64,000 nt of DNA from Psychrobacter namhaensis (GTDB taxonomy: Bacteria; Pseudomonadota; Gammaproteobacteria; Pseudomonadales; Moraxellaceae), in contig NZ_JABASS010000004.1 of assembly GCF_016107545.1 (NCBI RefSeq), positions 1 through 64,000 on the forward strand, in the 5' to 3' direction. The translations under genes and the position numbers were made by a program. The notes under the pieces are model-generated. The model was given only the letters and a program-made list of their open reading frames with translations, did not search any database and had not been told where the DNA came from. The number at the start of each line of letters is the position of its first letter. Within the stretch, counting starts at the first letter, position 1. Positions 10,818 to 60,450 of this stretch are shown piece after piece.

Positions 10818-10854
10818 CCAGTGCTAATGCGCACTAACATAACAGTTTGGAGAG

Positions 10855-10996
10855 TACAGTCGATTCACTTTAAGAACGATATAAGGCGACTGGAATGAAT
10901 TTTTCGCAGCCTCTGTATTAGCAGCAAGCAAGGAAAATTGATACCAGTCGCATGTCGCTATTAACGTATCAATTTTATTTTGTACTGCCTATAGTT
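10855..10996. repeat. Structured interspersed repeat, copy A
   Basis: The core at 10886-10951 begins GCGACTGG and ends CCAGTCGC, a perfect 8-bp inverted pair. Between them is the conserved motif GCAGCCTCTGT followed by CAGCAAGCAAGGAAAATT. Five further copies in the window share this motif (core positions 20542, 30030, 31515, 32785, 60104). The outer limits are approximate, set by similarity to other copies and by a TATAGT near the right end. Confidence 0.85.
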
Positions 10997-20299: not shown

Positions 20300-20510
20300 A
20301 TGAGAACTGTCCTATAATTGCTTATAAAATTATCTAAGGGATAATCTATGATGGATGAAACGAAAACAGTCTAGATATCTTACACAAAATCCGACGTCGA
20401 TGTTAGCAGATTAGATGAATTATTGATTATCAAGCCTGAAAACTTTTTATGCTATAGTGAATTATTCTGTTCAACATTGACTAAATTGCTTTTTTCTACT
20501 GACGCTCAAC

Positions 20511-20654
20511 TATAGTTAACACACTTTAAAATAGGCGCAGGGCTACTGGTATTGATTTCGCGCAGCATCGAGCGGCGTAGGCACAGCACGCAAGGGAAAT
20601 TAATACCCAGTAGCACTTGGCATAGTGTGTGCCAGTTTTATTCAGGATTGACTA
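20511..20654. repeat. Structured interspersed repeat, copy B
   Basis: The core at 20542-20614 begins GCTACTGG and ends CAGTAGC, and an outer pair ACACACT/AGTGTGT (20519-20525 and 20624-20630) extends the stem. The conserved inner block reads GGCGTAGGCACAGCACGC. It lies in the divergent serA/flavoprotein spacer, unlike most copies. The ends resemble TATAGT and its complement, as in a transposable unit. Confidence 0.85.
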
Positions 20655-20763
20655 CATGTACACTAAATCGACCACTCTATAGTTACTCACGAACGAACAT
20701 TTAGTTATACCCACACAATTATATAAACATAGTTATAGGCGTTTCGTTACAGCAATTTAGCGA

Positions 20764-25177: not shown

Positions 25178-25583
25178 AGCTGCCGTTATCATTGCACCTA
25201 TTTAATGTATTCTTATCACGGTGTTTTGTGGCTGATAAACGTATTTTATGTTGCATTCGTCTCGTGAGCATTTATTATTGACGTAACGGGGCTTATAAAT
25301 AGCATATCGCAGCCTAACCTTACAGTCACAGCACCACTAAATAAAGACGCTAACAGTCTGTGCTACTGGTAAAATCTTTTAGCGTGCGGTTCGCAAACAT
25401 GACAGAGGTGGCAAAATTTTCATCGCATACACACCATAGCACCTTTAAAGCGTTTTAACCCTATTAGCAAAAAAACGCCTAGGCACGTTGAAACGATCAG
25501 CTAAGCGTTGCCTTAAATTTTACATCCGATTGTACACTGACCTTTTAATCCAATCCTAACCTACCTTTTAAAAAGACACCTTT

Positions 25584-29991: not shown

Positions 29992-30008
29992 GTAAACTTG
30001 CATAATCG

Positions 30009-30142
30009 AGCCGCTATCAAATAAATATAGTGCTACTGAGATAAATTTTACGCAGCCTCTGTCTGCGCAGGCACAGCAAGCAAGGAAAATTTATACCAGT
30101 CGCACGTCGCCTTCAATGTAACGATTTCATATCGAACTGATT
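30009..30142. repeat. Structured interspersed repeat, copy C
   Basis: The core at 30030-30105 begins GTGCTACTGA and ends CCAGTCGCAC. The inner block has GCAGCCTCTGTCTGCG and AGGCACAGCAAGCAAGG. It lies between convergent genes (macrodomain and cold-shock). Outer limits are approximate. Confidence 0.85.
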
Positions 30143-30158
30143 ATGTCATCGATAATGT

Positions 30159-31466: not shown

Positions 31467-31630
31467 TTTAATATAGTTATTTCACTATCGTTTATAAGCT
31501 ATACAAGAGACACAGTGCTACTGAAATAAATTTTATGCAGCCTCTGTCTGCGTAGGCACAGCAAGCAAAAAAAATTTGTTTCAGTAGCGCATTATAGTGT
31601 ACGTTTTTACTGATAACGGATTGTATAGTC
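31467..31630. repeat. Structured interspersed repeat, copy D
   Basis: The core at 31515-31590 begins GTGCTACTGAAATAAATTT and ends TTTCAGTAGCGC, with nearly complete pairing of both arms. The inner block reads GCAGCCTCTGTCTGCG and AGGCACAGCAAGC. It lies between fkpB and the aldo/keto reductase gene. Confidence 0.88.
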
Positions 31631-32735: not shown

Positions 32736-32760
32736 AACGTTGCAATTAACTTAATTACCA

Positions 32761-32880
32761 TTAAGCTTTGATGATTTACTTTAATTACTGGGATGAATTT
32801 TTTGAAGCCTCTGTCTGGCATAGCGCACAGCAAGCGAGAAAATTTCATCCCAGTAAGTCATTTTTATCAGTAGAGCATTC
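32761..32880. repeat. Structured interspersed repeat, copy E
   Basis: The core at 32785-32856 has the best-preserved stem: TTACTGGGATGAA pairs exactly with TTTCATCCCAGTAA minus one base. The inner block AAGCCTCTGTCTGGC and CGCACAGCAAGCGAGAA is slightly altered. It lies between the convergent aldo/keto reductase and acyltransferase genes. Confidence 0.88.
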
Positions 32881-32901
32881 TTTGTTTTAAACTGACTAAA
32901 T

Positions 32902-32951
32902 AAAAAAAAGGCGCCAATCGCGAGTATTATCACTGCGATTGGCGCCTTTTT
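32902..32951. terminator. Bidirectional terminator between convergent genes
   Basis: GGCGCCAATCGC and GCGATTGGCGCC form a 12-bp stem flanked by A's and T's; it can serve both the reductase and the acyltransferase genes. Confidence 0.92.
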
Positions 32952-60020: not shown

Positions 60021-60073
60021 AGGCTGTTTTAGCAATGTATGTCTATGGCACCCTAAACATGGGTAGCCTGTTA

Positions 60074-60215
60074 TATAGTCAGATTAATATAAAAGAGATA
60101 CACGGGGCTGGGATAAATTTTTTGTGGCCTCTGTCGGCGTAGGCACAGCAAGCCAGAAAAAGTTGAACCAGTCGCGCAGCATAGTATCGTGTATCCATTT
60201 TATTCAGTATTGACC
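60074..60215. repeat. Structured interspersed repeat, copy F
   Basis: The core at 60104-60175 begins GGGGCTGGG and ends CCAGTCGC. An outer arm pair GATACACG/CGTGTATC (60097-60104 and 60188-60195) is perfect. Inside is GGCCTCTGTCGGCGTAGGCA and CAGCAAGCCAG. The left end TATAGTCAG and the right ATTGACC are partly inverted. It lies between mutM and the small exported protein gene. Confidence 0.88.
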
Positions 60216-60450
60216 ATAACAACTAAATACTTCCGTTTAAACGTTCTGCCTTTTTTATTACGCTCGCTACATAGTACGCATTTTTGTTGCTTATTCACGT
60301 ACATCTTGCTTTAATAGTGCTAACAGCTACATAAGTCGTGCAGCTTTTTTGGTTGCCTGTAATATCAGTCTACCTATTATTTTATACTGTTTGTGCATAG
60401 CAACGGCAGCAGTCAGTAATCATACCCCTTATGAATTTTAGGACATCGTT

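Follow-up and report, generated by a model that had tools for sequence, protein, structure and literature searches.

A probable IS630-family MITE of Psychrobacter with strand-specific covariation in its inner stem

The window analyzed here is a 64-kb stretch of the Psychrobacter namhaensis genome, in which an initial annotation had recognized six copies of a structured intergenic repeat. By sequence inspection and an inverted-repeat search we found all six where they had been placed, with the cores ascribed to them, and every arm pair that had been quoted occurs in the window copies. The count of six was nevertheless too low, because there is a seventh, decayed copy on the minus strand at 25319–25465 (covariance model [CM] score 33.0 bits, E = 0.003). 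The repeat unit, a core with its flanking arms, is also real but was drawn too small: intact copies extend over about 138–150 bp from one terminal inverted repeat (TIR) to the other. The flagged copy lies on the plus strand at 32748–32902 (CM hit of 71.4 bits, E = 2.8e-12 in its own genome). Its ends are decayed, with GATTTACTTTAA as the remnant of the left TIR and TTTTAAACTGACTAAA of the right one. The inverted-repeat search delimits the two arms of its inner stem, TTACTGGGATGAA on the 5' side (32785–32797) and TTTCATCCCAGTAA on the 3' side (32843–32856), and between them is the conserved core GAAGCCTCTGTCTGGCATAGCGCACAGCAAGC (32804–32835), all on the plus strand. The GC-rich hairpin that adjoins this copy at 32904–32951 (AAAAAAAAGGCGCCAATCGC...GCGATTGGCGCCTTTTTC, with runs of A and T at its sides) is likely to be a two-way terminator between converging genes.

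The other window copies named originally are also on the plus strand. Both TIRs are present in the copies at 10853–10995 (128.4 bits; TACAGTC...GCCTATA), 20509–20658 (126.4 bits) and 60072–60220 (125.4 bits); the first of these is placed between a polA-like ORF and the next ORF and has a shortened apical loop, the second has the core variant GCATCGAGCGGCGTAGGCACAGCACGC, and the third has the subterminal pair GATACACG/CGTGTATC. The copy at 29999–30147 (131.3 bits) is situated between convergent genes and starts 8 nt past the stop codon of the upstream ORF. At 31484–31627 (97.5 bits) the inner stem and core are intact and the TIRs poorly preserved; this copy and the flagged one are among the more decayed ones. 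The conserved core of the inner stem is GCAGCCTCTGT...ACAGCAAGC, and its first block, which had been described as common to all six copies, is exact in three of them (at 10906, 30052 and 31537) and variant in the other three: it has one mismatch at 32804 and two at 60124, and is replaced by GCAGCATCGAG in the copy at 20542. The copy at 10853–10995 (contig C40) and one elsewhere in the same genome (contig C5, 58007–58149) are 94% identical over 139 bp, which ranks them among the most similar copies of that genome, and they represent a sub-type with the shortened apical loop GTATTAGC.

When 120 bp of the flagged copy served as the query, 16 places in the 2.9-Mb P. namhaensis genome matched with E-values of 2e-6 or better, many more than chance would produce. 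A covariance model built from 12 copies (149 positions, 49 pairs) detects about 50 distinct places in this genome at E < 1e-3. The copies are intergenic, and their overlap with ORFs is almost nil. The search of Psychrobacter genomes that had been proposed as a check found the repeat genus-wide, with matches in 58 of 60 genomes of the genus, the weak ones (best E about 1e-5) being to a second MITE family described below. In a wider sample of 299 genomes, 94 Psychrobacter genomes and one genome of another genus in the same family have matches at E < 1e-5, and copy number varies widely among Psychrobacter species, from 0 to more than 50. We also searched the GTDB collection (84,980 species) for the exact core pattern: among the matches listed, all are from Psychrobacter except for two single hits, in Acetobacter and in a Sabulitectum MAG, which by our estimate are no more than chance would give. 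A plasmid search gave one partial match to the repeat. At the gathering score, Rfam models hit only tRNAs in this sequence and the repeat matches no family; a hit to RT-14 at a relaxed threshold (E = 0.22) was set aside, since it covers the repeat together with an unrelated terminator. Our literature search did not find a description of this Psychrobacter repeat.

The ends of the repeat identify its probable origin. Intact copies end in the inverted repeats TATAGTC(G/A)(A/G)TTCA..(T/A)TAAAA..GATACA and their complement, 138–150 bp apart (the consensus can also be written TATAGTCrrTTCa..TAAAA..GATACAg), and in the P. namhaensis genome this pattern has 79 hits, compared to 15 for a reversed-pattern control. 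These terminal repeats, and the transposase they point to, had been overlooked initially; they match the ends of full-length IS630 copies. Transposases of the IS630 type (PF13358) are present in 17 of 20 copy-rich Psychrobacter genomes, in elements of about 910 bp (908–920 bp) whose ends are the same as those of the repeat over about 29 bp (for example, TATAGTCAGTTCAAAATAAAAGAGATACA at locus L206). These elements carry two ORFs, one for a helix-turn-helix part (PF01710) and one for a DDE part (NF033545 over the cut-off, PF13358), and relatives in Moraxella and Acinetobacter plasmids likewise start with TATAGT. DDE_Tnp_1 (PF01609) transposases were considered as an alternative partner, and convincing matching ends were not found for them. 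The TIRs are shared with autonomous IS630 elements of the same host group, but the genome that contains the window has no PF13358 transposase, and we found no autonomous copies near orphan TIRs there, so mobility in P. namhaensis would be past or would need an outside source.

Comparison of the joined flanks of filled sites to all the loci that we fetched revealed two clean empty sites among related species, at which there is a single TA where the filled site has TA on each side of the element: GCATA-TA-GCGC (filled at locus L400, empty at L332) and CCGGA-TA-AACAAC (filled at L163, empty at L436). The target preference is palindromic, (A/C)TA(G/T), with A or C before the TA and T or G after it. 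Most relatives lack the copy that the window has at its polA-like locus, and genome G029 has an independent insertion there in the opposite orientation. Mobility of the repeat is thus well supported. Considering also that it is shorter than 300 bp, is without a transposase ORF and is multi-copy (about 50 copies), we regard it as very probably a non-autonomous member of the IS630 family, that is, a miniature inverted-repeat element (MITE) of 138–150 bp, on which an IS630 transposase would act in trans. The suggestion of palindrome-dependent transposition is therefore borne out as far as transposition goes, but a dependence on the inner palindrome is unsupported. Similarly, the outer-arm changes that had been read as covariation (ACACACT/AGTGTGT versus GATACACG/CGTGTATC) do pair, but they are better explained as parts of IS630-type terminal repeats, because the two ends of individual IS630 copies co-vary in the same way in their GATACA/GTTATA/GTACA stretch.

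Inside the ends, a conserved asymmetric internal loop and a hairpin (GCAGCC-UCUGUC...GCACAG-C-AAGC) cap a 20-bp stem. The inner stem and core have no 10-mer in common with the IS630 elements, for which reason we rejected their derivation from the IS, and judged by sequence they are a module separate from the IS630 ends. In an alignment of 89 copies, both partners have changed in 34 of the 49 pairs that make up the whole structure, compared to 19.7 when the alignment is shuffled and 18–22 when it is slid; counted in cells, the difference is 248 to 101. In the inner helix, 18 of 20 pairs have changed on both sides. A stricter, tree-aware null, in which substitutions are replayed on the tree, is exceeded at E < 0.05 by two of the 49 pairs (35–104 and 36–103) and by no non-pair, and 8 of the strongest 20 column pairs are structural. 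The proposed covariation test is thus significant for the inner stem, strongly so against the weaker controls and in two pairs beyond phylogeny. Most of the copies were top entries of score lists, which biases percentages of paired positions upwards.

We then compared the two kinds of wobble mismatch in the stems, since an A.C pair on one strand is a G.U pair on the other. In 175 copies we counted 312 G.U cells and 51 A.C cells for the inner stem, with 17 columns favoring G.U and 3 favoring A.C (P = 0.0026), whereas the TIRs of the same copies have 189 and 120 cells (4 columns to 7). This comparison within the same copies is one safeguard against the score-list bias; the other is a set of copies collected by blastn instead of the covariance model, in which the inner stem has 76 G.U and 17 A.C. 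On the tree, a standard pair gave way to G.U 90 times and to A.C 33 times in the inner stem; for the TIRs the counts are 57 and 45 (Fisher P = 0.008). The asymmetry suggests that what matters is folding of a single strand, the one with the core, probably as RNA. Variants that are shared among copies are biased towards G.U (18 to 7) and rare variants are not (6 to 10; P = 0.05), in keeping with selection that acts on source copies, after which neutral decay sets in. The original claim that covariation suggests selection for folding is therefore supported for the inner stem, by both the compensating changes and the strand-specific wobble, but not for the outer arms.

Several kinds of variant exist. 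At least eight copies carry the inner stem and core in reverse orientation with respect to the outer ends and to a 13–14-nt one-sided spacer (L086, at G000:C4:19588-19740 in the window's own genome, and L089, L133, L289, L291, L293, L310 and L357); these suggest hairpin-mediated rearrangement, and they keep passive correction of one arm by the other alive as a rival explanation. In a sub-family found in several species, about 20 nt (CTTTTTTTAAAACATAGGTT-like) take the place of the AATTTT stretch in the 5' arm (L362:4327, L368:767 on the minus strand, L422, L432, L433 and L385). The second Psychrobacter MITE family, of about 107–111 bp, has the same IS630-type ends and another interior (..AAGGCAACCGAGTGCAGATGT...ATACTTCAAGCGAGGTTAACGCTGT..). 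It is common in genomes that are poor in the first family; for example, G009 carries the second family instead (loci L267–L283 in G009, G033, G057 and G038, such as L267:1501-1611).

The copies show no preferred orientation relative to genes: 40 are sense and 36 antisense in gaps between genes of the same direction, while convergent gaps hold 38 copies and divergent gaps 18. This randomness makes selection by way of read-through transcription unlikely. We looked for a conserved internal promoter upstream of the inner module and did not find one, and there is no conserved outward promoter, TATAAT being present in only 25 of 153 copies. One copy (L031:1592-1620) has a promoter-like TTCATA-17-TATAAT in its 3' spacer, directed out of the element.

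Our preferred interpretation, to which we give a probability of about 0.66 as a whole, is that the repeat is an IS630 MITE with an inner module under selection for a fold of one strand. An IS630 transposase acting in trans would cut and paste the element, inserting it at TA and duplicating the TA. In source lineages, the inner stem has been kept paired through compensating changes; one strand in its folded state, most likely the element's own transcript, would help source copies to spread or make them better tolerated; and inserted copies would then decay. We give the selective component, acting on the one-strand fold mainly as RNA, an even chance, and an RNA role for the inner module should be read as conditional on it. 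Against it are the facts that only two of 49 pairs survive the strict null and that the sub-family in which part of the stem is replaced still has several copies; we also know of no hairpin requirement for IS630 transposition. The arms could instead have stayed complementary by mutation, if template switching at quasi-palindromes copies arm onto arm as the DNA is replicated, in which case the element would be a plain MITE. Inverted inner modules are one possible outcome of template switching within a hairpin, and the second MITE family also keeps its TIRs and subterminal arms matched. Template switching treats the two strands alike, however, and the observed excess of G.U over A.C is about six-fold in the inner stem but far smaller in the TIRs; moreover, the most conserved part of the element is the core, whose sequence is not self-repeating. 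We consider this explanation unlikely.

Selection could alternatively act on the folded single strand as DNA, as a strand-specific hairpin for a recombinase or host protein comparable to attC or REP/RAYT. A single-stranded DNA substrate would account equally for the strand-specific pairing preference and the conserved unpaired bases, but a DDE mechanism acting on double-stranded DNA is indicated by the ends, the duplicated TA and the matching IS630 transposase, the copies are oriented at random with respect to genes, and by eye we saw neither integron R/R' boxes nor a REP GTAG foot; we think it improbable that the hairpin acts in this way. Least credible to us is that the repeat is a cis-acting mRNA element or a family of small RNA genes, repeated by chance and kept at each site by host selection. 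Its covariation and conserved internal loops do resemble those of an RNA family, and several window copies begin less than 20 nt from a stop codon. The empty sites already largely refute it, because copies are present or absent at orthologous sites with TA duplication; the random orientation led us to reject an mRNA element, and the range of copy number within the genus and the lack of an Rfam match at gathering score also argue against it.

The closest known elements to the Psychrobacter MITE are RUP and Correia/NEMIS. RUP, the repeat unit of pneumococcus, for which mobilization by IS630-Spn1 at TA has been proposed, is likewise a small intergenic non-coding repeat with IS630-like TIRs, a TA target and a predicted folded transcript; it differs in its length (about 107 bp) and its Gram-positive host, and the available extracts on RUP do not mention a covarying inner stem around a conserved core (PMC2229807, PMC3049150). 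Correia/NEMIS elements (CREE) are intergenic, occur in two size classes of about 107 and 155 bp, and have folded transcripts that are cut by RNase III, according to the extract available (PMC2229807). Their TIR as given in the source extract, TATAGTGGATTAAATTTAAA (abbreviated TATAGTGGATTAA...), is identical at 17 of 20 places to the end of the Psychrobacter MITE, TATAGTCGATTCACTTTAAA, in a comparison that covered the ends (PMC5039591). They belong to another host family: Correia elements are from Neisseria, whereas our repeat occurs in Psychrobacter, with a single confident match outside it, to another genus within the family, and the extract names no autonomous partner for Correia. BOX and SPRITE of pneumococcus are also described as repeats that are dispersed between genes and predicted to fold as RNA (PMC3049150), but they have other ends (ISSpn2-like in BOX) and other folds. 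MITEAba12 is a MITE of the same bacterial family, Moraxellaceae, but in the passages available it is mobilized by ISAba12, makes 9-bp duplications and is predicted to fold only weakly (PMC6382973).

The Psychrobacter MITE is unusual in that its inner module covaries in a strand-specific way. To our knowledge, MITEs are usually said to fold without a test of whether folding matters, and counting G.U against A.C on each strand is a simple test by which selection at the RNA level can be told apart from passive correction of palindromes in these elements. The similarity of the ends makes an IS630-type transposase a candidate for the mobilization of Correia elements, and suggests that such an enzyme may have mobilized them in Neisseria. 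For Psychrobacter, the analysis names a transposase family for a genus-wide repeat that shapes intergenic regions. More tentatively, and with odds that we put below even, the inner stem and core may be an independent strand-specific RNA module that was captured between IS630 ends, is maintained by selection on the element itself, and is able to flip within it. If that is true, IS630-type MITEs of this kind would be small RNA-bearing parasites and not passive palindromes.
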